DNA of 64,000 bases from Leuctra nigra (taxonomy: Eukaryota; Arthropoda; Insecta; Plecoptera; Leuctridae). The stretch is from NCBI GenBank assembly GCA_934045905.1, contig OW203769.1:26505705-26569704 (forward strand). Direction: 5' to 3'. Shown here piece by piece: positions 7,701 to 61,643 of the stretch. The notes under the pieces are model-generated. The model ran no database searches. It was given only the letters and a program-made list of their open reading frames with translations, and was not told where the DNA came from. Every line of letters starts with the position of its first letter. Within the stretch, counting starts at the first letter, position 1. The position numbers and the translations under genes were made by a program.

Positions 7701-7940
7701 AAATTATCCTTAGTGTTATTAAATTTCTGAAGGGACCTACTTGGAAAATGGCATAACAAAAAAGATATCTCAGTTTTGGTAAACACACCGCAAATTCTAA
7801 CAAAATGTATCAGATATCAAAATATTGAAGACTTAAAGTACTTTCGTCTGGCAAGATAGAGGTCTCGGGTTCGGACCTCGGTTAGGCCGGATATTTTTCA
7901 AGCCGCCCATATCAAGCCCTTTTTATCAATCATACATAAT
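4701..7940. other. intronic DNA, no gene seen
   Basis: AT-rich DNA without recognisable exons. A patch near 5400-5480 is rich in GGGCCC words, also seen at 21630-21740, and may be repeat debris. A GGTTCGGACCTC word at 7866-7890 resembles a pol III B box but has no partner box. The final vestigial exon might be expected in this intron's flank but was not recognised. Confidence 0.35.
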
Positions 7941-8046
7941 TATACCCAGATTCAGGACAATTTATAAAACTTTACTCACAAGGTTAAATTCCATCGCTCT
8001 GCAACATCTCACAGCTACGGCGATTCCCAATCTCCACACCTTCTGT

Positions 8047-10659
8047 GTGGAAAAAACCTTTGAATGTACAGGCATCATTTGGACTCTCCCTAACCAGCCC
8101 CCCTACATAGTCATCTCAATTTACCGTTCACCCACGGGAGACTTTTCCTCGTTCATTGAACAACTAGACAATCTCCTACAACACCTATTATCCTCTTACC
8201 CGAAATCGGACTTATTCGTCTGCGGAGACTTCAATGTTAATTTTCTAGTTCCCTCCAATGACATGATAACACTCTTAGATACTCTTCACTCCTACAACCT
8301 ATATCAGACAATCAACACTCCGACTAGAATAACCAGCCACTCCAGCACTCAGATAGACAACATCTTCACCACTGTTGATTCAAGTTCTATATCAGCCTCA
8401 ACGACTGATCCTAACCTATCTGATCATATGGCCATAACAATTAAAATCACAGCACAGTCGCAGCCTCAAAACAAATATGTAACCAAACGTATATTTAACA
8501 ATACTAACTTAGAACATTTCTGTTCTCTCTTGAGCGAGGAAGAATGGGCGTCTACATACTTATCCCAAGGCGCAGACGAAATGTACAGTAATTTTCTAAA
8601 TACTTATCTCCTTCATTTTCACGCTGCTTTCCCTTTTCATCGAGTCAAAATTCGCAAGAAAAATACATGGATCACTTCAGAGATCCGTGATTCTGCAAAG
8701 AACCTGCGTAGACTTAATAAAAAATACAAACGCGACCCTTCAAATCGTGAAACTAAATCAACTTACATCGCAAGTAAGAATGTGCACACTCGAGCCATAC
8801 GACTTGCCAAACGTCATCACTCAGATCACATACTCGAACTTTCATCCAATAAGCCCAAAACAGCATGGCAACTGATCAAAAATCAAACCACTGCACCCCT
8901 TCCTATTAATGATCTTGAAATCACTATTAATGATAAAAAAGTAAGTGATTCTAATCTTCTCTCAGAGCACTTTAACTCGTTCTTCGTCAACTCGTCCAAC
9001 ATAATCCAACCGAGGACAAACACTGACTTTAACCTCTTGCCTATCCTTCTCGAAAACAATGCACCAGACAAATCTGTGTTCCTAATCCCAACAACGCCCA
9101 GCGAGATAATTATATTGATAACCAAAATTTCCTCAAAGGCTTCTAGTGGCTTGGATGACATTCCAGGTACTCTGGTTAAACAAACCATTAAGTACATCGC
9201 AAGTCCACTATCGCATATCATTAATGAATCATTCTCGTCAGGTATTTTCCCTCAGAAACTCAAGGAGTCAAAAATTATACCAATTTACAAGAAAGGCTCC
9301 AAACTTGACGTGAATAACTATAGGCCAATATCCCTACTCCCAGCATTTTCAAAATTTTTTGAAAAAGCTATCTACAATCGCTTCTACTCCTATTTAACTG
9401 AAAATAACATTCTTACAAGTTCCCAACACGGATTTCGAAGGAACCGGTCCACTTCCTCGGCAATATTTTCTTTTCTCTCTCCACTTTACTCAGCCTTAGA
9501 CAGGAGTGATAAAGTGATAGGACTTTTTTACGATCTCTCAAAAGCCTTCGATACTCTTTACCACCCACATCTTCTTTCCAAACTCTATTCCTATGGCATT
9601 CGCGGTTTAGCTCATGACCTCATAACCTCTTTTCTTAAGGATCGTACACAAAGAGTCTCAATTCGTTCGAGTAATCCAAACAATCCTAACTCAACCTTGT
9701 CAAGCCCACAGTATATCACTAGAGGCGTCCCACAAGGATCAATTCTAGGCCCGCTTCTCTTTATCTTATATATCAACGATTTACCCCTTCATTTCAATGA
9801 AGGTACAGTCACAATCTATGCAGACGACACCAGTCACCTTTTAACTACAACCAAAGACTTGGCCTCCCTGTCCAAAACAGCCACAGAACAAGCTGAGCTA
9901 ATGTCTTCCTATTGCGTAGTTAATCAACTTTCCCTTCAGCCAACCAAAACTGTCTTTCTCGAATTCCGCAATAACCATTCTATCCCTGACTCAAGTCCTC
10001 TTATTCACATGAACAGAACCAGCATTCTGCAGAGTTCTTCGACAAAATTCCTAGGGCTCCACCTTACTGATAATCTTAGTTGGACCAAGCATGTACACAC
10101 TATCTCTTCTAAAATATTAAGTGGATGCTACCTTCTTCGTAGATTGAAACTCACAGTAAGTCCAGAATCGCTTAAACTCATATATCATGCTTGCATTCAT
10201 TCACACCTGTCATATGGTCTCCTTTTTTGGGGTGCTAGCACCGCCGCTAAAAGAATCTTCATTCTCCAAAAGCGTGCAGTTCGCATACTGGCCGGCATAG
10301 CACGAAGAACATCATGCAAGCCTCACTTCACCACTCTAAAAATATTAACACTACCTTCCACTCTTATTCTCATTGCCGCTTCCTTTGCACACTCTAATCC
10401 CGAGCTCTTCCAGCGAAACTCTTCAGTGCACACACATAGTACACGTACGACTAATGATATTCATATTTCAACACACTCACGGGCACTTTTTCAGAAAAGC
10501 CCCCAATACCTCTGCTCTGCAATCTACAATCGAGTTCCTGCCCGAATCAGAGAAGCCCCTTCCTACCACTCATTCTGCTCCTCCCTACGATCCTACTTAA
10601 TTAACCATCCTTTATACAGCATTGATGAATTTATTCATGAATCCAATGTCAACCCTTGA
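8047..10659 (+). CDS. LINE endonuclease-reverse transcriptase (5'-truncated)
   Basis: This 870-codon frame encodes the enzyme that nicks target DNA and copies element RNA into it. Residues 1-135 are the C-terminal part of an APE-type endonuclease, with SIYRSP, CGDFNVN near residue 60 and LSDHMAI near 125. A linker follows, then the reverse transcriptase: IIPIYKKG and NNYRPISLL (about 415-430), FYDLSKAFDT (about 495), GVPQGSILGPLLF (about 560) and the catalytic YADDT near 591. A C-terminal connection/thumb region ends at TGA. Codon 8047 is GTG, not ATG; the frame continues open upstream, so the listed start only marks where the conserved block begins. There is no internal stop or frameshift across 2.6 kb, which points to a young insertion. 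The missing endonuclease N-terminus probably prevents activity. Confidence 0.88.
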   Translation: MEKTFECTGIIWTLPNQPPYIVISIYRSPTGDFSSFIEQLDNLLQHLLSSYPKSDLFVCGDFNVNFLVPSNDMITLLDTLHSYNLYQTINTPTRITSHSSTQIDNIFTTVDSSSISASTTDPNLSDHMAITIKITAQSQPQNKYVTKRIFNNTNLEHFCSLLSEEEWASTYLSQGADEMYSNFLNTYLLHFHAAFPFHRVKIRKKNTWITSEIRDSAKNLRRLNKKYKRDPSNRETKSTYIASKNVHTRAIRLAKRHHSDHILELSSNKPKTAWQLIKNQTTAPLPINDLEITINDKKVSDSNLLSEHFNSFFVNSSNIIQPRTNTDFNLLPILLENNAPDKSVFLIPTTPSEIIILITKISSKASSGLDDIPGTLVKQTIKYIASPLSHIINESFSSGIFPQKLKESKIIPIYKKGSKLDVNNYRPISLLPAFSKFFEKAIYNRFYSYLTENNILTSSQHGFRRNRSTSSAIFSFLSPLYSALDRSDKVIGLFYDLSKAFDTLYHPHLLSKLYSYGIRGLAHDLITSFLKDRTQRVSIRSSNPNNPNSTLSSPQYITRGVPQGSILGPLLFILYINDLPLHFNEGTVTIYADDTSHLLTTTKDLASLSKTATEQAELMSSYCVVNQLSLQPTKTVFLEFRNNHSIPDSSPLIHMNRTSILQSSSTKFLGLHLTDNLSWTKHVHTISSKILSGCYLLRRLKLTVSPESLKLIYHACIHSHLSYGLLFWGASTAAKRIFILQKRAVRILAGIARRTSCKPHFTTLKILTLPSTLILIAASFAHSNPELFQRNSSVHTHSTRTTNDIHISTHSRALFQKSPQYLCSAIYNRVPARIREAPSYHSFCSSLRSYLINHPLYSIDEFIHESNVNP

Positions 10660-12056: not shown

Positions 12057-12262
12057 CCGCCATTGAAGGGTACGCCGAGTACGTGGACTCGAGGGCATGC
12101 GCGTGGTGCGCAGAAGGTTGGTGCGCAGCCGACGCCCAAGGCTCGGGCTTGGTGTATTGGTGGGGCGCTGTAACGTGCGGGGGCAGTCGTGCAGAGGGTG
12201 GCAAAAGTAAACCACTATATTGTGCGGCCATGTTGTGGTGATGGTGGTAGTCATGGACAGCC
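12057..12262 (-). CDS. vg: vestigial exon, His-rich C-terminal region
   Basis: This 206-bp exon of Vestigial, the nuclear cofactor that binds Scalloped/TEAD and drives wing development, is bounded by a good acceptor (TTTCCTCAG) and donor (GCGG/GTAAGT). It starts in phase 2 and ends in phase 1, so it joins the exon at 13242-13419 without a frame break. It encodes about 68 residues, starting AVHDYHHHHNMAAQYSGLL and ending HALESTYSAYPSMAG. The HHNMAQY-like block and the HALE...SYPxMAG ending match my recollection of the insect Vg C-terminal region. Reading past the donor gives GK and a stop, so this is not the last exon. One short terminal exon is expected further downstream and was not found in 1-12056. 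The exon has clearly higher GC than its flanks. Confidence 0.92.
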
Positions 12263-13241: not shown

Positions 13242-13419
13242 CTGTGGTGGTGCGCTGCTGCCGTGTACTGCTGGTAGTGTGAGTGCCAGGGGTCGCTGCT
13301 GGCGGAACTGTGTGGGTGGTAGGGGTCGCCATAGCCGTGGTGCGTCACCGTCGCCGGGCTCTGGTAGTTGCTGTTCCAGAAGGAAGGGGGGAAGTTGCGC
13401 TGGTTCATCGGAGACGATT
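13242..13419 (-). CDS. vg: vestigial exon with FPPSFWNSNY motif
   Basis: This 178-bp exon is flanked by an acceptor (CTTGACCAG) and a donor (CACAG/GTAACC). It starts in phase 1 and ends in phase 2, matching the TONDU exon upstream and the His-rich exon downstream. It encodes SSPMNQRNFPPSFWNSNYQ, then a Tyr/His/Ser-rich stretch (HHGYGDPYHPH, SDPWHSHYQQYTAAAHHH). RNFPPSFWNSNY is a conserved block immediately after the TONDU region in insect Vestigial and is the best single identifier after TONDU itself. The region behind TONDU is low in complexity and is thought to contribute to transcriptional activation by the Vg-Sd complex; that role is family knowledge and is not visible in the sequence. 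Frames on the plus strand here are shadows. Confidence 0.94.
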
Positions 13420-20078: not shown

Positions 20079-20282
20079 CTTTATCATGGGAGGTATTCGA
20101 CGTCTTGTCACTGTAGCTCGACGCCGCCGACAGCGCTCTGCTGAAGTGCTGGTCCACGACAGACTCCACATCGCCGGAGTAGTGCGTGAACACCACGCAG
20201 TTGGCCGACAAGTACTGCGCCCTGCTCCCTCCAGGGCCAGGCCCTTCGTCATCGTCGTCGTCATCGTCCCCGGGACCACAAC
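20079..20282 (-). CDS. vg: vestigial exon with TONDU (Scalloped-binding) domain
   Basis: This exon encodes the interaction domain by which Vestigial binds the TEAD factor Scalloped in the nucleus to form the wing selector complex. The predicted acceptor is TTTGAACAG at 20283-20291 and the donor AAAG/GTCAGT at 20079/20078. The length of 204 bp gives phase 2 in and phase 1 out, fitting both neighbours. Residues 1-22 are an acidic lead (CGPG, seven Asp, Glu, GPGPGGSRAQ). The TONDU core then reads YLSANCVVFTHYSG, DVESVVDQHFSRAL, followed by SAASSYSDKTSNTSHDK. In this frame a TGA lies just upstream, inside TTTGAACAG, so the exon cannot extend further left in the protein. The first 72 bp (20211-20282) form the proximal unit of a 17-unit tandem array that also duplicates the splice acceptor; use of the proximal acceptor is my inference. 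Confidence 0.95.
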
Positions 20283-21576
20283 CTGTTCAAACAAGTTGGG
20301 ATCAGTACTGCGCCAGGCCCTTCGTCATCGTCATCGTCATCGTCATCGTCCCCGGGACCACAACCTGTTCAAACATGTTGGGATCAGTACTGCGCCAGGC
20401 CCTTCGTCATCGTCGTCGTCGTCGTCCCCGGGACCACAACCTGTTCAAACATGTTGGGATCAGTACTGCGCCCGGCCCTTCGTCATCGTCGTCGTCGTCG
20501 TCCCTGGGACCACAACCTGTTCAAACATGTTGCATGTTGGGATCAGTACTGCGCCCGGCCCTTCGTCATCGTCATCGTCGTCGTCCCCGGGACCACAACC
20601 TGTTCAAACATGTTGGGATCAGTACTGCGCCCGGCCCTTCGTCATCGTCGTCGTCGTCCCCGGGACCACAACCTGTTCAAACATGTTGGGATCAGTACTG
20701 CGCCAGGCCCTTCGTCATCGTCGTCGTCGTCGTCCCCGGGACCACAACCTGTTCAAACATGTTGGGATCAGTACTGCGCCAGGCCCTTCGTCATCGTCAT
20801 CGTCGTCGTCCCCGGGACCACAACCTGTTCAAACAAGTCGGGATCAGTACTGCGCCAGGCCCTTCGTCATCGTCATCGTCGTCGTCGTCGTCGTCCCCGG
20901 GACCACAACCTGTTCAAACAAGTCGGGATCAGTACTGCGCCCTGCTCCCTCCAGGGCCCGGCCCTTCGTCCTCGTCGTCGTCGTCGTCCCCGGGACCACA
21001 ACCTGTTCAAACATGTTGGGATCAGTACTGCGCCCGGCCCTTCGTCATCGTCATCGTCATCGTAACCGGGACCACAACCTGTTCAAACATGTTGGGATCA
21101 GTACTGCGCCAGGCCCTTCGTCATCGTCGTCGTCGTCGTCCCCGGGACCACAACCTGTTCAAACAAGTCGGGATCAGTACTGCGCCCGGCCCTTCGTCAT
21201 CGTCATCGTCATCGTAACCGGGACCACAACCTGTTCAAACATGTTGGGATCAGTACTGCGCCCGGCCCTTCGTCATCGTCATCGTCGTCGTCGTCGTCGT
21301 CCCCGGGACCACAACCTGTTCAAACATGTTGGGATCAGTACTGCGCCCGGCCCTTCGTCATCGTCATCGTCATCGTCATCGTCCCCGGGACCACAACCTG
21401 TTCAAACATGTTGGGATCAGTACTGCGCCAGGCTCTTCGTCATCGTCATCGCCATCGTCCCAGGGACCACAACCTGTTCAAACATGTTGGGATCAGTACT
21501 GCGCCAGGCCCTTCGTCATCGTCATCGTCGTCGTCCCCGGGACCACAACCTGTTCAAACATGTTGGGATCAGTACT
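20211..21576 (-). repeat. vg: tandem array of about 17 copies of a vg 3' splice site and exon start
   Basis: Seventeen units lie between 18 AGTACT words. In gene orientation each unit reads AGTACTGATCCCAACATG, TTTGAACAG/GTTGTGGTCCC, a (GAC/GAT)n acidic run, GAAGGGCC(T/G)GGCGC and the next AGTACT. Each therefore carries a branch-point-like TACTGAT about 20 nt before a CAG acceptor and the start of the TONDU exon. Unit length varies by multiples of 3 (70, 73, 76, 79), as set by the GAN triplets, and so is 1 modulo 3 in the units checked. Two units (the exon-proximal one and that at about 20941) carry 17 extra bases (CTGCTCCCTCCAGGGCC on the plus strand). One has a 6-bp TGTTGC insertion near 20530. 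Open frames over 500 codons on the plus strand are a consequence of the repeat. Confidence 0.93.
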
Positions 21577-21700
21577 TGTCCTCATCATGTTTGTCGTCAA
21601 ATCTCCTGGCCAATAAGAAAAGTGTAGGGCCCCTGTCCCGGGCCCCTCATCGTCGTCCTCATTATCTATTACCATGTGAGGTTGTGGCGTAACTTCAGAT
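21577..21700 (-). other. vg: distal edge of the acceptor array with an open frame
   Basis: In gene orientation this segment runs GATAATGAGGACGACGATGA, then GGGGCCCGGGACAGGGGCC, and ends ATGAGGACAAGTACTGATCC at the first array unit. The frame reads DNEDDDEGPGTGA...DPNMFEQ into the array. Its acidic run and GPG resemble the start of the TONDU exon (DDDEGPGPG), so it may be a diverged relic of the same sequence or an alternative exon. A run of 13 C residues sits at 21705-21717. Confidence 0.4.
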
Positions 21701-21899
21701 TTCGCCCCCCCCCCCCCGCAGGATATTATTTAGGGCCCCCTACTTTTTAATTGCCTAACCATAAAATCATTTTAAAATATGCATCATTTTTGTTAATTTT
21801 TAAATACTTTTTGTTTAATTATTGTAAATCCAGTTGCGAGCTTAGTTTATGTAGTAGGTAGGTAGATAATAACAGAAGGTGAAAATAGTACCTACACTC

Positions 21900-22132: not shown

Positions 22133-22560
22133 CCCCCCCCCCCCCCCCCCCCCGCCCTGGGCCCACGCGACTGCGGGGGAGGGATGGGAGGTTGGAGGTG
22201 TACTCACCGTCTGCCGTGTTCCTCGTGGAGAGATCCTCTTCCTTGTGGCGGACCGGGGGCGGGGAGACGGGGGAACCGACTCCCCCCCCCCCCCCCGCCC
22301 TGGGCCCACGCGACTGCGGGGGAGGGATGGGAGGTTGGAGGTGTACTCACCGTCTGCCGTGTTCCTCGTGGAGAGATCCTCTTCCTTGTGGCGGACCGGG
22401 GGCGGGGAGCCGGGGGAACCGACTCCCCCCCCCGCCCTGGGCCCACGCGACTGCGGGGGAGGGATGGGAGGGTGGAGGTGTACTCACCGTCTGCCGTGTT
22501 CCTCGTGGAGAGATCCTCTTCCTTGTGGCGGACCGGGGGCGGCGAGCCGGGGGAGCCGAC
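22133..22560 (-). repeat. vg: three-copy tandem array of a vg 5' splice site and exon end
   Basis: The end of the vestigial exon, its donor and about 60 bp of intron are present three times with units of 137-143 bp. The exon/donor boundary CAGACG/GTGAGT occurs at 22488/22487, 22351/22350 and 22208/22207. Each unit also holds CCCATCCCTCCCCCGCAG, a pyrimidine-rich acceptor-like site. Two complete pseudo-exons (22351-22450 and 22208-22313) are therefore bounded by splice signals on both sides. The copies are separated by C runs of 9, 15 and 21 on the plus strand, which set the frame: the three exon ends are read in three different phases. Confidence 0.9.
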
Positions 22561-22674
22561 GCCGCCGCCCCCCGAGCTCACCGAGCCTGTACTGCTGTGG
22601 TGTGAGGAATGGTGTTGGTGGTAGGAGTCCAGAGACGTGGATGGTTGAGGCTCCAGAGACCGCTGGACGTTGAA
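22488..22674 (-). CDS. vg: vestigial exon, Ser/His-rich N-terminal region with HKEEDL
   Basis: The acceptor is TTTCTCTGTTCACAG and the donor GACG/GTGAGT. The 187-bp exon starts in phase 0 and ends with one base over, which pairs with the two bases that open the TONDU exon. It encodes FNVQRSLEPQPSTSLDSYHQ, then HHSSHHSSTGSVSSGGGGVG, SPGSPPPVRHKEEDLSTRNT and AD. A KEEDL motif is also found upstream of TONDU in Drosophila Vg, and the Ser/Gly/His-rich composition fits. It is not the first exon, since there is no initiator and an acceptor precedes it. The expected first exon was not recognised between here and 64000. The last 70 bp are repeated twice more downstream in the donor array. Confidence 0.88.
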
Positions 22675-24519: not shown

Positions 24520-24703
24520 AGGCCGATGCACAATTGACGCAGACGGACGACGCGGACGGACGACGGAGACGGATACGATGTTTAGGTATGACATATTCAC
24601 TCTGGCTGTTCACAATCGGACGCGGACGGACGACGACTTTAACATTGTATCCGTCTCCGTCGTCCGTCCGCGTCGTCCATCCGCGTCAATTGTGCATCGG
24701 CCT
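24520..24703. mobile_element. foldback MITE with TAA duplication (PIF/Harbinger-like)
   Basis: The left end AGGCCGATGCACAATTGACG and right end CGTCAATTGTGCATCGGCCT are perfect inverted repeats. They extend inwards through GACGGACGACGGAGACGGAT-type sequence. The element is flanked by TAA on both sides (24517-24519 and 24704-24706), a 3-bp duplication of the kind PIF/Harbinger elements make. The 184 bp have no coding capacity. Confidence 0.75.
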
Positions 24704-25328: not shown

Positions 25329-25545
25329 TGCACATTATCTGGTCAGAACTTGTACAACATGCACTATGTGATCAGAATGTGTCCATCAGACATCATCACA
25401 AGATTGTCAGGTAAAAGGTTATTCTCGATGTGCACATTATCTGGTCAGAACTTGTAAAACATGCACTATGTGATCAGAATGTGTCCATCAGACATCATCA
25501 CAAGATTGTCAGGTAAAAGATTATTCTCGATGTGCACATTATTAA
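25329..25545. repeat. 102-bp tandem duplication
   Basis: TGCACATTATCTGGTCAGAA occurs at 25329 and 25431, and TGCACATTAT again at 25533. The intervening 102 bp (through CAGACATCATCACAAGATTG and TCAGGTAAAAG) are almost identical. There are two full copies plus the start of a third, suggesting a recent duplication. Confidence 0.85.
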
Positions 25546-27642: not shown

Positions 27643-28580
27643 CAGGCGCGTAGGAACTTCATTTTGAGTGGGGGGGGTCAAAATTATGGGGATCAATGAA
27701 TGTGAGGAAAAGTAGTCGTCGTTACAATGGGGTCTGGGAAGCCCGCAACCCAAATTGCCCCGCAGGGCCTTTTTTGAATTTTTGATACAAAAGAATCGAA
27801 TTTGAAGCTATTTTTGTATATTTTTCAAAGAAATTTACAATGTGTGAAATGCAATATTCTGTGGAAACTTTAAGAAATGTAATATAATTTGTAGCTATTT
27901 GTTTTTAATACCCATTATTGGCCCCGCAGGGAATTTTTTGGGTTATTGATACAAAATAATCGAGCTTAAAGCTATTTTAGCATACTTTTCAAAGAAATTT
28001 AAAATGTATGAAATGCAATATTCTGTGGAAACTTTATACAAATGTAATATAACTGTAACTATTTGTTTTTATAGAATCCCCATTGGCCCCGCAGGGAATT
28101 TTTTGAGTTTTTGATGCAAAAGAATCGAATTTGAAGCTATTTTGGCATCGTTTTCAAAGAAATTTAAAATTTGTGATATGCAATATTCTTGGGAAACTTT
28201 GACAAAATGCATTTTAATCTGTAAATTTTGTTATTCGATAAAATCCCTAAAGATAATCGATTATGAATAGATTTTGGAATTGCTTTGAAAACGGTGCTTA
28301 TTCGGTATCATAGTTTAACGTGTAATTATTAAATTGTATTCATGAGGATGATCTTGTTGGACAAATGAGTTATGGTCTAATTGGATAATACCTCTGTTCA
28401 ATTAGCTTTGCAAAACTTGGGAAAATTTTGAGAATTCAACCTCATAATGGAGCAAATTTGTGCATTTTTGGATCTCTTTATCAAAATTTGTGTGTATCTG
28501 GGGGTTATATCTGGGGGTGTCAAGATGAAAAGTGGGGGGGTCATTGACCCCCACTCCCCCCCCCCCTTCCTACGCGCCTG
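27643..28580. mobile_element. hAT-like nonautonomous element
   Basis: The terminal inverted repeat is CAGGCGCGTAGGAA on the left and TTCCTACGCGCCTG on the right. It is flanked on both sides by the 8-bp duplication TGTATAAA (27635-27642 and 28581-28588). CAG...CTG ends with an 8-bp duplication are diagnostic of hAT transposons. The 938-bp interior has no transposase, is G/C-run rich near both ends, and contains three tandem copies of a 164-bp sequence. Confidence 0.88.
27757..28245. repeat. three tandem 164-bp units inside the hAT-like element
   Basis: GCCCCGCAGGG begins units at 27757, 27921 and 28086. Each continues with TTTTTGA...ACAAAA(G/T)AATCGA, GAAGCTATTTT, CAAAGAAATTTA and GCAATATTCTGTGGAAACTT. 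Similarity is high but not complete. Confidence 0.85.
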
Positions 28581-42819: not shown

Positions 42820-43642
42820 TATCTGTAAACTGAAGAACACGAAAGATAGAAACATAATGTCCTTATAATATGAACAAACTTCTTGACATTCTTTGGAAAT
42901 GGCCTCACACTGACTGGATTCAAGTGAAAGGCAATACATTACAATTTGCTGGCCACTTTGAACAATGCACCTGCTTCTTTATTCCTTCGCTCGCTGACAT
43001 TGTTGAGATTATAGATCTCATCATTCCCTTCACTAATTTGCCTGGACCTTTTATTTGAATATTTAGAACATTCCTCGGAATCATCCTTATTTCTTTTTTT
43101 ATGTTGTTCGTGAATATAAGACCTGTATTTTAAATAATTTATTACGGTTATAAAATGTGGTATTCTATCTAATTAGTTTAAGATAAGTTGTGCATGGCTT
43201 CTAACGAGACCAAAATGACGATATTCCTTCCATTTTCGTTACAAAAAATTAATTACTCTATTTTTTTATATTTGCACTAATTTGCTACATAGCTATTACA
43301 TCATTTAGTTTAAAACAATGGAATATTTATGCATTATCTTTCATCAGAACCCAATTAAACATTTTGAAATTAATATAAGACAATAAGACAATATCTGAAA
43401 TCTTAATGTATTGAGTGTATTTTGTAAACTACAACTACTAAGTACTTCAGCAAGAGGCTGAAGGTAAAAGAAGGTTAAAGGTTAAAAAAATTCGATATTG
43501 AAACTACTATTGAGTGTTAGTTTAGGTAGTCTATTGAATTATAATATTTATTGTTTTGAAGAGTTAAGAGAAAAAATATTTCTAAAAATGGAAATATATG
43601 CTGGAGTATTATTGGCAGGAATTATTCTACTTATCTACTTAT

Positions 43643-44460
43643 ATGGTAATGGAGAGAAAACAGAAGACTAAGTGCTGTATAAAATTGAAAGGAGATGTGC
43701 TTGAAGAGAGAGATGAGTTTAAGTACTTAGGAAGTGTACTGACAAGGGATGGAAAGGTGGACAAGGAGATTGAGAGGAGGGTGTGTATGGCTGAAGGGTT
43801 TTATCAGAGTGTGAGGAAACTGTTGTGGAACGAAGACATGCCACGTAGGTGTAAGGTACTACTGTACAAGATGTACTTTGTACCGATCTTAACTTATGCA
43901 GCAGTAACCTGGCCAATGGGAGGGAAGGAAGAAGTGAAATTACAAGGGGCAGAGATGAAGTTTTTAAGAAGTTTAGCAGGATTGACAAAACTTGACAAGG
44001 TAAGAAGTACAAAGATAAGGAAAGATCTGGGAGTGGAGGCTCTAGGTTTCAAATTGGGAAAAGAGAGGTTGAGGTGGTATAGACGATGGAAAGGAATGGC
44101 ACCGGGAAGAATTCCAAGGAGGGAGGCAGAGCGAGCAGCAATTGATGGGAAAAGAAAGAGAGGAAGACCAAGAACAAAGTGGATGAATGGAGTGGTGGCG
44201 GCTGTGGAAGAGAGAGGGGAGTCGTGGATGAAGATCAGAGATGAAAAGTGGTGGGAAGACGTGGACATATGGAGAAGACTTGTAGAAAAAGTTGAGGAGG
44301 AAGGAGGAGAAGAAGTTGAAGATGGAGAAGAAGATGATGAAGATGAAGAGAATACAGAAGAAATGTCAGGCCCGGCCAGCCGGTTTCATTAATTAGGCCC
44401 TTGTATTTACCTCCTTAACCCACTGTAATTTGGAAAAAAAAAAGGATTAAAGATTATTAT
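43643..44460 (+). pseudogene. non-LTR retrotransposon 3' fragment 1
   Basis: The frame ending at 44392 encodes only the C-terminal part of a LINE reverse transcriptase. It has EFKYLGSVLTRDGKVDKEI, then an LYK.YFVPILTYAAVTW block, and a lysine/arginine-rich GRPRTKWM...DEKWWEDV region with a Glu/Asp-rich end. The YLGSVLTRDG and LTYAAVTWPM blocks are typical of the region behind the RT palm in RTE-like and related LINEs. The palm itself (YADD) is missing, so this is a dead 5'-truncated copy. A 3' untranslated stretch and GATTAAAGATTATTATT tail follow. The host frame before 43643 is unrelated. Confidence 0.75.
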
Positions 44461-44805
44461 TTATCTACTTCTAACTTGGAATGTATTTTATTACAATGAA
44501 TACTTACCTTTTAAATGTATGTATACCTACAGCTGTTGGTGTGCCTAAACTAGGAGCAAAATTTAATTTTAACTTACAAGCTCACATATTTTCACAAAAA
44601 ATAAAACTGTTTGTTAGGACTTGTACGCGCAGGACTAACTAGGTAGTTTTTTATTGATGGCCTTGAACATTAATTAATCATAAATGATATACTATTATAT
44701 TTATTGAAGAAGACAACACCGATATTTAATATTTATTACATGCGAGTAGACGTTATTAGCACAGGTTGTGCCCGTTTCCTCTTAAGACATTTTTAAAAAA
44801 TTGCT

Positions 44806-45365
44806 TTTTATGGGGCGGTAACATGGCCAATGGGCAGAAGAGAAGTAGCAGAAATCCAGGCGTCACAGATGAAGTTTTTGAGAGGGGTGGCGGGAGTGAC
44901 CAAGTTGGATAAAATCAGGAGTAAGAAGATAAGACAAGATTTGGGAGTGGAGAAGTTAAGTTTGAAGATGGGTCGAGAGAGGTTGAGATGGTTCGGGCAC
45001 ATGAAAAGAATGGGAGAGGAGAGAATTCCTAGAAGAGCATTTGAGAAGGGAAGACAGGTGAAGAAAAGGAAGACTGGACGTCCGAGGACGAAGTGGATGG
45101 ACGGCATTGAAGAGGATGTGGCGGAGAGAGGCGAAGATTGGAGGAGAGTGGAAGGAGAGAAGTGGTGGGAAGATGTAGAAAGATGGAATGAGTTGGTGGA
45201 GCGGCAGGTGGAGGATTCGGAGGATGGTGAAGACGATGAGGAGGAGGACAACGGGGAAGAAGTCGGAATGGCCAGCCGGCTGCGGCATCCCAGGAGGCCC
45301 TAGAGGACGGTGGAGCTACCTCCACCCCCAACCCGACATTAGTTGGATGGGGAAAAAAGATACTA
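44806..45365 (+). pseudogene. non-LTR retrotransposon 3' fragment 2, same family
   Basis: The frame from 44809 (YGAVTWPMGRREVAEIQASQ) to TAG at 45301-45303 parallels fragment 1 from its AAVTWPMG block onwards: KFLRGVAGVTKLDKIRSKKI, LRWFGHMKRMGEERIPRR, GRPRTKWMDG and EKWWEDVERWNEL, then an acidic end. It is truncated more severely. The two fragments are direct-oriented, about 350 bp apart, and too different to be a simple duplication, so they look like two independent insertions of one family. Confidence 0.75.
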
Positions 45366-59529: not shown

Positions 59530-60718
59530 TGGGTCATTTCGCCTCAGAACAACCAACGAATTTTCATGACCCATTTCTATTATAATCAAACTTGGTGAAG
59601 TTGTTGTTAAAAGCAAAAAATGAGACACATATTTTTTTGTTTGGTCAATTTTGTCACCCTTCTGGTACTTTCACCCCTTCGAAAATCTCACTTTTTAAGA
59701 AACCCTTAAATACATAACTGCTTGTAACTTTAGACCTGTTTGAGATATTTTAGTGATCTTTTTTAATATTTGTACACAAATGTAAGTAGTTTCATAATAC
59801 GCAATGATAAATATAATTATTTTTTAAATCAGGGGTGACCAAACCAAATTTTGACTTTAAATGGGCCCCCCCCCCCCCCCAAAAAAATACATTTTTTAAA
59901 ATTTTGAAAAAATTATATCTTGTTTATCATTATTATGTTAACATTCCCTGAAATTTTCAGAGTGGTATATTGTTTTGTTATTTTTTTATGAATTAAAGTT
60001 CACCGTCGTATTTTAGAAGATCATAAAATATCACTCTCCGTGTGGTATTATGATATTAAGTGTGCTTCAATTATTGATTAAAATGAATCAGTGTTAGAAT
60101 AATGACACAATCCTATATTGAATTTGTCAGTTACACGATATTTTTAAATAGGGGTGACCAAATCGGGAATGGTATTACAGCAATTTAATATCCACTGATG
60201 CAGTCTTAATTTTTAGATTATGCGCTATTTCTCAGTACATTTTGGTGTTCGAAATCGACTACCATTGTAAGATGTTCTTTGTTTGTCAGTTTTAATTGAG
60301 AGTTCAATGAAATATATGCAATGAGATGATTATATATTTTTATATATACATAATTTTACTGTGCTAATAATTAGTAAATTTTTTGGTTGACGCTAGTAAA
60401 AGCCCCATAACCTCGCCAAGGTCTCAACCATTGTATGGGGTCTTTTTTTATTGTGGAAAGGTTAAAACCACAGACTGACATATGAGAGAAAAGGGATCAC
60501 TTCGGGACTTTAACGATTTCATCTTTAGATTGAGCGGCATATGAATAGATTTTGGTGGAGAAAATGGAAACTGAGACAGGAATGAAGCAATGAAGTTTCT
60601 GAGTTCCAGTGATGGTGCGTGAACTCAGAAACCTTTCATTCAGGAGTCTTGCCTCGGCTGCGTGGTCTTCTTCCGTACAGAAAGTGAAGTCGACGGCTTC
60701 AATGTTCGACCTCGCCCA
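59530..60718 (-). repeat. left arm of a 3-kb long inverted repeat
   Basis: This arm is the inverted counterpart of 61422-62615, with matching landmarks throughout. Examples are TTCGACCTCGCCCA at the inner edge, the C-terminal coding region of a transposase-like protein (a 140-codon minus frame ends at 60497), AATGGTTGAGACC/GGTCTCAACCATT, the run of 15 C at 59866-59880, and TGGTCACCCCTGATTTAAAA outward. Identity is high but not complete; for example, the C run is shorter in the right arm. Confidence 0.88.
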
Positions 60719-61643
60719 TCTGCGAGAGCTCATGGACGAGAAGATGATAGAAAACATCACCTTCAAGTGATGGGCGTCCGTCGATCGTTGCTCTCTGGAG
60801 ATAGTCACCAAGCCCATGGACGACTTCCTGGAGAGCTTCTGTGATGGTCTTGTCACCCTGAAGCGACACTCTTTCCTCGCCACACAGCAAGCCGCCTTCC
60901 AGAACGAAGTGAAAGACAACTTGAATCCCGGAGAATTTCTTGTTGTTTGCGATTTTGCCGAGAACTATTCCTTTGTTCTCCAAGATGAAGCGCAGGGCTT
61001 CAATTGGAATAACTCCTCGGCAACAATCCATCCGTTCGTCGCCTACTATCACGTATGTGGAGAGGAGCGACACGTCAGCTTCGTCGTGATATCGGACTGT
61101 CTCACTCATAATACAGTGGCAGTCCACTTATTCCAGAGGAAGCTGATGGAGTATCTGACGAGTGTCCAGGGCGCAGCTCCGAAGAAGATCATCTACTTCT
61201 CCGACGGGGCCGCCTCCCAGTACAAGAACCGGAAGAACTTCACCAATCTGTGTCATCACCAGGAGGACTTCGGCGTCGCCGCCGAGTGGCACTTCTTTGT
61301 CACATCATATGGCAAAGGAGCGTGTGACGGCGTCGGAGGGACGGTGAAGAGGCTCGCTGCCCGCGCCAGTCTGCAGCGCCCCTACGAGTCGCAGATCATG
61401 ACTCCACTGCAACTGTTTGAGTGGGCGAGGTCGAACATTGAAGCCGTCGACTTCACTTTCTGCATGGAAGAAGACCACGCAGCCGAGGCAAGACTCCTGA
61501 ATGAAAGGTTTCTGAGTTCACGCACCATCACTGGAACTCAGAAACTTCATTGCTTCATTCCTGTCTCAGTTTCCATTATCTCCACCAAAATCTATTCATA
61601 TGCCGCTCAATCTAAAGATGAAATCGTTAAAGTCCCGAAGTGA
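60719..61643 (+). pseudogene. transposase-like gene, interrupted and 5'-incomplete
   Basis: The main open part (60816-61643, 275 codons) has CDFAENYSFVLQDEAQGFNW, ISDCLTHNTVAVHLFQRKL, YFSDGAASQYKNRKNF, HFFVTSYGKGACDG and VGGTVKRLAARASLQRPY. Spaced acidic residues (CDF, FSDG, ...) and the GK(G)xCDGxGGxxKR box resemble a transposon-derived protein family found in many animal genomes and usually annotated as uncharacterised; an RNase H-like DDE nuclease is my guess. The same frame continues upstream from 60719 (HLRELMDEKMIENITFK) but meets an in-frame TGA at 60768-60770. The N-terminal part is missing: at 60718 the sequence switches to the inverted copy of its own C-terminal region. The last 74 codons lie in the right arm of the long inverted repeat. 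Confidence 0.6.

Follow-up and report, generated by a model that had tools for sequence, protein, structure and literature searches.

The window analysed here, 64,000 nucleotides of the plecopteran Leuctra nigra (assembly GCA_934045905.1, contig OW203769.1, positions 26,505,705 to 26,569,704 of the forward strand), carries on its minus strand the developmental selector gene vestigial, in which the start of the exon encoding the TONDU motif, together with its splice acceptor, is present in 17 tandem copies. Six exons with a coding span of about 89 kb were joined to an unbroken frame of 318 codons when the copy of the acceptor proximal to the exon (acceptor 17) was used, the first and the last of these exons being situated beyond the window in its flanks:

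Flank L009, 1564–1433: first coding exon, beyond the window, part of the 318-residue frame.
22488..22674, minus strand: exon A, the coding exon preceding the TONDU exon (acceptor TTCACAG, donor ACG/GTGAGT), aligning with Anabrus vestigial.
20079..20282, minus strand: TONDU exon when entered at acceptor 17 (204 nucleotides (nt), donor AAAG/GTCAGT), part of the 318-residue frame.
13242..13419, minus strand: exon 3, the next coding exon after the TONDU exon, aligned and joined in frame.
12057..12262, minus strand: exon 4, the coding exon after exon 3, aligned and joined in frame.
Flank L021, from 6658: last coding exon, beyond the window, part of the 318-residue frame.

The deduced Vestigial protein runs from MTMSCPEVVYQAYYPYLYQR to ESSKDLYWF. 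Four candidate AGs at the last-exon join gave 318, 316, 315, or 313 residues, and the 318-residue join was adopted since its GLEAQVQ is identical to that of Anabrus. A first-pass annotation, made from the letters alone, had named the gene vestigial and the downstream exon its TONDU exon, and both assignments were confirmed by the Pfam domain Vg_Tdu (PF07545; 67.4 bits compared to a cut-off of 27) and by gene-wide matches to insect vestigial (Anabrus, Periplaneta), including the N- and C-terminal exons. The closest homologue among the best 120 of 181 was vestigial of Anabrus simplex, with 66% identity over a query of 258 residues, and the solved structures matching by sequence were two chains, both of vestigial-like protein 1. 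In a tree of vestigial proteins, the gene grouped with those of Orthoptera, Blattodea, and Phasmatodea, though with weak support (Shimodaira–Hasegawa-like approximate likelihood ratio test, 87 on an open fork; 43 of 121 rows). Homologues differ in the acidic run that precedes the TONDU motif: in the 108 of 120 listed sequences with an anchoring motif, the longest run had a median of 3 and a maximum of 9 residues, with at least 5 in 17/108, and runs of 7–9 residues precede the motif in the nearest listed relatives Anabrus, Periplaneta, Cryptotermes, and Zootermopsis. Altogether, the gene shares the TONDU motif and the gene-wide matches to Anabrus and Periplaneta with its family (PF07545) and departs from it only in its repeated exon boundaries, while the coding product looks ordinary. 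Among the matches listed in literature searches on vestigial isoforms, none concerned such repeated boundaries as judged by title.

The repeat at the acceptor side of the TONDU exon, designated array A, consists of the following features:

20211..21576, minus strand: array A, 17 tandem units bounded by AGTACT, each combining TACTGAT and the acceptor TTTGAACAG with the initial codons of the TONDU exon.
20283..20291, minus strand: acceptor 17, the exon-proximal TTTGAACAG and sole one of the 17 repeated acceptors to open the TONDU frame.
20365..21558, minus strand: acceptors 1–16, with the last base at 21550, 21474, 21398, 21316, 21231, 21155, 21079, 21003, 20910, 20825, 20749, 20673, 20600, 20517, 20441, and 20365, all of them running into a stop ahead of TONDU.

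Bounded by AGTACT, the coordinates of the seventeen units given in the first-pass annotation were exact. Tandem Repeats Finder placed the array at 20236–21576, with a period of 76, 17.0 copies, and a score of 1776. Counted on the minus strand, TTTGAACAG and GTTGTGGTCC each occur 17 times in the window, always within array A, while TACTGAT occurs 20 times, 17 of these within the array; the branch-point-like TACTGAT, the acceptor, and the exon start do recur in 17/17 units, as had been claimed. The unit length, previously stated as 70–97 bp, has to be corrected to a measured spacing of 73–93 bp between neighboring acceptors (n = 16). A shift of the frame by one base per unit, also proposed, applies to 14/16 intervals, the exceptions being unit 8 (93 bp, 0 mod 3) and unit 13 (83 bp, 2 mod 3). 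Unit 8 owes its length to a 17-bp piece which is otherwise found in unit 17 only and is missing from the remaining 15 units, most of which shift the frame.

The units carry a GAC/GAT (acidic) run of variable length, and 15/17 of them are distinct. Together with the spacing of 73–93 bp, this variation resembles that of a real, mutating minisatellite. With regard to concerted evolution sparing the edges of the array, as in the lancelet repeats discussed below, a private AACTTG variant was seen in unit 17, whereas private bases are absent from unit 1. Identity between units does not clearly fall with distance. A search of the host genome (536 Mb, 144 contigs) with a two-unit query listed 9 matches, all of them in array A; this search skips simple repeats, and its number of matches is a lower bound (at least 9). 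That the copy number is wrong, the array having been expanded or collapsed during sequencing or assembly, is a risk for such repeats, as illustrated by published lancelet cases, in which haplotype 1 of the globin gene BflGb6 was apparently misassembled in the draft genome and repeat counts of PGBD5 differed between assemblies (2 and 3 versus 7 and 6; excerpts of PMC3087553 and PMC3902484). However, 15/17 units differ here, whereas mere stuttering within a single read would have left no differences between them, and the array is located deep in a contig of 33.5 Mb, so that we regard such an error as decidedly unlikely.

A second array, missing from the first-pass annotation, which had overlooked the donor end of the intron, was detected in the list of scored tandem repeats at the other side of the same intron:

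22139..22573, minus strand: array B, 143 bp × 3.1 (Tandem Repeats Finder), about three units.
22208..22351, minus strand: two additional donors (2 and 3) with their last exonic base at 22351 and 22208, respectively, both ACG/GTGAGTAC as in donor 1.

Each unit of array B takes in the last part of exon A with its donor as well as the beginning of the intron, and the donors ACG/GTGAGTAC are identical in 3/3 units. Besides GTGAGT, the units contain an acceptor-like CCCCCGCAG preceded by 15/17 pyrimidines, which exceeds the counts of all four scored exon acceptors (10, 12, 12, and 14). Arrays A and B thus multiply both ends of the intron that separates exon A from the TONDU exon. Poly-G/poly-C runs were also seen in the vestigial introns (at about 19110, at 21706–21720, and at 22139–22155), one of them forming the edge of array B.

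Testing the frame for all 17 acceptors verified that only the exon-proximal one opens the TONDU frame. The accompanying statement that the upstream acceptors would add units to the exon was incomplete, as from donor 1 a stop precedes TONDU in 16/16 cases. A rescue of these decoys through donors 2 or 3 could be ruled out: among the 51 pairs of 3 donors and 17 acceptors, donor 1 with acceptor 17 is the single productive one. Likewise rejected was a reading of the array as coding sequence, since 15/16 inner units contain stops in both non-exon frames, unit 8 has stops in the frame of the exon itself, and entry at acceptors 1–16 ends in a stop.

Extending the test to all 89 AGs between 22150 and 20140 in combination with the 3 donors revealed six pairs that retain the TONDU frame, namely 20282, 20243, and 20228 with donor 1, 20224 and 20221 with donor 3, and 20214 with donor 2, all six acceptors being located in the last unit. 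The real acceptor might thus lie outside the 17, either at an AG inside the last exon copy, where five positions besides acceptor 17 keep the frame, or upstream, e.g., at the TAATAG at 21665, with the repeats being plain intron or exon. Behind the latter, the following stretch was identified:

21628..21666, minus strand: putative older and diverged duplicate of the exon start, DNEDDDEGPGTGA, located behind TAATAG and upstream of array A (DNA and protein similarity).

In its DNA, this stretch resembles the exon start with a local score of 28, which is reached by 1/500 shuffles, the best of 439 other stretches of the window scoring 24, and DNEDDDEGPGTGA resembles EDDDDDDGPGTGS of the Anabrus exon start (tblastn E = 1.4 to residues 122–134 of Anabrus Vg). 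It may therefore represent an older copy. As an acceptor, however, the site at 21665 leads to a stop, the two alternative AGs joining donor 1 (AAG and GAG) lack a pyrimidine tract, and the remaining three require donors 2 or 3. Moreover, among the six productive pairs, the acidic run, which measures 7–9 residues in the nearest listed relatives, is included by acceptor 17 alone. Taken together, use of an acceptor other than the 17 appears very improbable.

Among the repeated acceptors, the choice also bears on exon length. While acceptor 17 defines an exon of 204 nt, acceptors 16, 15, and 14 would give 286, 362, and 438 nt, acceptor 13 would give 521 nt, and acceptor 1 would give 1471 nt, so that all exons from acceptors 1–13 measure at least 521 nt; the introns flanking the TONDU exon measure about 2.2 and 6.7 kb. 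For human splicing events, the excerpts of PMC9225289 describe recognition of splice sites across the exon when the flanking introns exceed 250 nt, a preference for the sites that are then closest across it, and, with long introns, efficient inclusion only of exons below about 500 nt. Splicing would then be predicted to use acceptor 17, the one nearest to the downstream donor (204 nt versus 286–1471 nt), since it is closest across the exon and introns of 2.2 and 6.7 kb favor exon definition. Slight leakage to the nearest decoys would yield RNA containing stops, so that the array would be tolerated rather than used.

In an alternative reading, the array would work as a splice dial, the decoys diverting transcripts into stop-containing mRNA and the copy number setting the amount of full-length Vestigial. 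All 16/16 decoys are indeed dead ends, TTTGAACAGGTTGTGGTCC is identical in all 17 acceptors, and the GAC/GAT run in each unit might act as an exonic enhancer. However, the longest invariant run covers 22 of 73 ungapped columns, which is within chance (P = 0.21, shuffling), so that no selection on the acceptor core was seen. Furthermore, the decoy exons (286–1471 nt) are longer than the proximal one, and comparable repeats in lancelets are reported, in the excerpts of the papers discussed below, not to disturb splicing. We thus consider a working dial rather unlikely. RNA structure across two units gave no signal either (z = 0.27; 110/200 shuffles fold at least as well), and a scan of the whole window against Rfam resulted in 0 matches at gathering scores.

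As AG/GT is present at 17/17 acceptors, each of them could regenerate a donor, and early acceptors might be re-spliced stepwise down to acceptor 17. The regenerated donor GTTGTG, however, agrees with the consensus at 0/4 positions after GT in 17/17 units, compared to 2–4 for the five donors of the gene. Without a usable adjoining donor, the acceptor was rejected as a recursive splice site by this consensus check, leaving recursive splicing extremely improbable. In alternative exon arrays of the Dscam type, every copy is a complete exon possessing both an acceptor and a donor of its own. Array A was rejected as such an array because it has no usable donors: of the 88 GTs inside it, 87 agree with GTRAGT at no more than one of the four positions that follow GT, and a single one agrees at two.

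The closest known counterparts are the "mirages" of lancelets, minisatellites spanning an exon–intron boundary, which the excerpts of PMC3087553 and PMC3902484 describe for globin genes (BflGb6, BflGb9), Adh3, troponin C (TnC), and PGBD5. Calling the array at the TONDU exon very unusual, as in the first-pass annotation, was therefore too strong. As far as these excerpts go, the likeness is close: the repeats lie over intron end, acceptor, and exon start, or the equivalent at the donor; many units keep their AG/GT signals; and either the 5′ or the 3′ boundary can be affected, as in arrays A and B. In vestigial, the repeats span the boundary and splice signals are kept in 17/17 acceptors and 3/3 donors. 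The differences concern the copy number, with 17 units compared to 6 and 3 in the two haplotypes of BflGb6 (PMC3087553) and at most 7 in PGBD5, and the location in a developmental selector gene of an insect. Here, the repeats affect the two boundaries of a single intron, a feature that the lancelet PGBD5 repeats (exons 3 and 4) may share. Compared to the globin and PGBD5 cases as published in these excerpts, host, gene, and copy number are new, and the pairing of repeats at both ends of one intron may be new as well. Among the matches listed in open-licence literature, judged by title and start of the abstract, no insect mirage was found.

Two further types of boundary repeats were compared. 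According to the excerpts of PMC2812944, boundary minisatellites in human genes of segmental duplications can bring cryptic splice sites into use or create new introns; those repeats average 30-bp units × 4 in primate-specific paralogs, whereas here a conserved regulator with an intact frame is affected. The excerpts of PMC2891723 deal with intron gain by tandem duplication of AG/GT proto-splice sites, and a duplicated AG/GT unit of array A could likewise become an intron of unit length, but its GT stands in a very weak donor context in 17/17 units.

With respect to splicing of mirages, the excerpts of PMC3087553 state that Adh3 data and reverse transcription PCR of globin transcripts suggest no interference with regular splicing, and those of PMC3902484 state that the Adh and TnC mirages generate no aberrant mRNAs, splicing of PGBD5 being mostly predicted there. 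Based on this, as far as the excerpts reach, and on the exon-definition rules of PMC9225289, acceptor 17 is expected as the main site. Altogether, the 17-fold exon start with its splice site most likely arose by ordinary repeat expansion, leaving 16 decoy acceptors. As judged from the sequence, we consider it probable that array A is a mirage-type minisatellite across the boundary of the TONDU exon, neutrally expanded, paired with a donor-side array and with acceptor 17 used normally.

Regarding the origin of array A, an inverted-repeat search revealed a perfect 10-bp inverted repeat at its borders:

20207..20216: left arm, GACAAGTACT.
21571..21580: right arm, AGTACTTGTC.

A one-copy ancestor flanked by GACAAGTACT and AGTACTTGTC could have been duplicated when slippage or template switching occurred at a hairpin; loss of 17 bp from a longer unit would have followed, and the short form would have spread by unequal exchange. 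The expansion perhaps started at such a hairpin-forming site. In the region of vestigial, minisatellites are common: counting arrays A and B, 8 tandem arrays with a period of at least 30 and at least 3 copies were found in the surrounding 244 kb, three of them with at least 13 copies. For the one-unit locus, a hairpin of −22.5 kcal/mol was predicted, compared to −13.3 ± 2.5 for shuffles, 0/300 of which reached it, and GACA was the best among 256 possible 5′ tetramers with the rest of the hairpin fixed, though these tests were chosen after the boundary had been seen and the palindrome AGTACT supplies part of the stem.

This last restriction is one of several points that weigh against neutral expansion with normal use of acceptor 17. 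Mean identity between units is 0.83–0.92 at all lags and adjacent units are not closer to each other than distant ones, so a simple step-by-step duplication is not visible. If the older upstream copy at 21628–21666 is real, acceptor 17 is perhaps not the ancestral site. In addition, the acceptor of array A is poor, with 10/17 pyrimidines at −20 to −4 compared to 12, 12, and 14 in the three other scored acceptors of the gene. Finally, for 3′ sites with long introns, the preference for the upstream site is merely "significantly reduced" in the excerpts of PMC9225289, and 16 equal decoys might therefore compete well.

Apart from arrays A and B, further tandem repeats were observed in the long vestigial intron before exon A, at 25329–25542 (102 bp × 2.1) and 27757–28232 (165 bp × 2.9), and long minisatellites flank the window (L020:6955–7791, 30 bp × 28; L026:4645–5538, 69 bp × 13; L016:2890–3202, 35 bp × 8.9). 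The vestigial intron before the last exon harbors at 7837–10659 on the plus strand an uninterrupted frame of 940 codons of a non-long-terminal-repeat retrotransposon (RVT_1, E = 2.2e-29; Exo_endo_phos_2), the nearest protein among the best 120 of 659 matches being 49% identical. At 24536–24700 on the minus strand, GACGCGGACGGACG-type repeats occur in two opposite orientations, resembling by eye a foldback element; within them, Tandem Repeats Finder scored a 13-bp array at 24536–24573. Two open frames on the plus strand (43586–44392 and 44797–45303) are similar by eye, have acidic tails, revealed no Pfam match at E 0.001, and are perhaps fragments of retroelement proteins. Another frame of 290 codons (60771–61643, plus strand) had no Pfam match, and its last part is repeated nearly verbatim in the last part of a frame on the minus strand (60497–60964), the two perhaps stemming from a mobile element that was duplicated in inverted orientation.

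The locus provides a natural competition test among 17 nearly equal acceptors and 3 equal donors of a single intron, in which the unit variants serve as barcodes for the acceptor used and could measure how the distance to the downstream donor decides acceptor choice. If decoys were used, the dosage of vestigial would depend on an unstable repeat. That poison-acceptor and donor copy number form a heritable, possibly somatically unstable dial, setting full-length Vestigial and hence wing growth per animal, appears quite unlikely to us. Judging from this array, mirages seem to extend beyond lancelets; it also shows that such an array can reside in a conserved selector gene whose reading frame stays intact.
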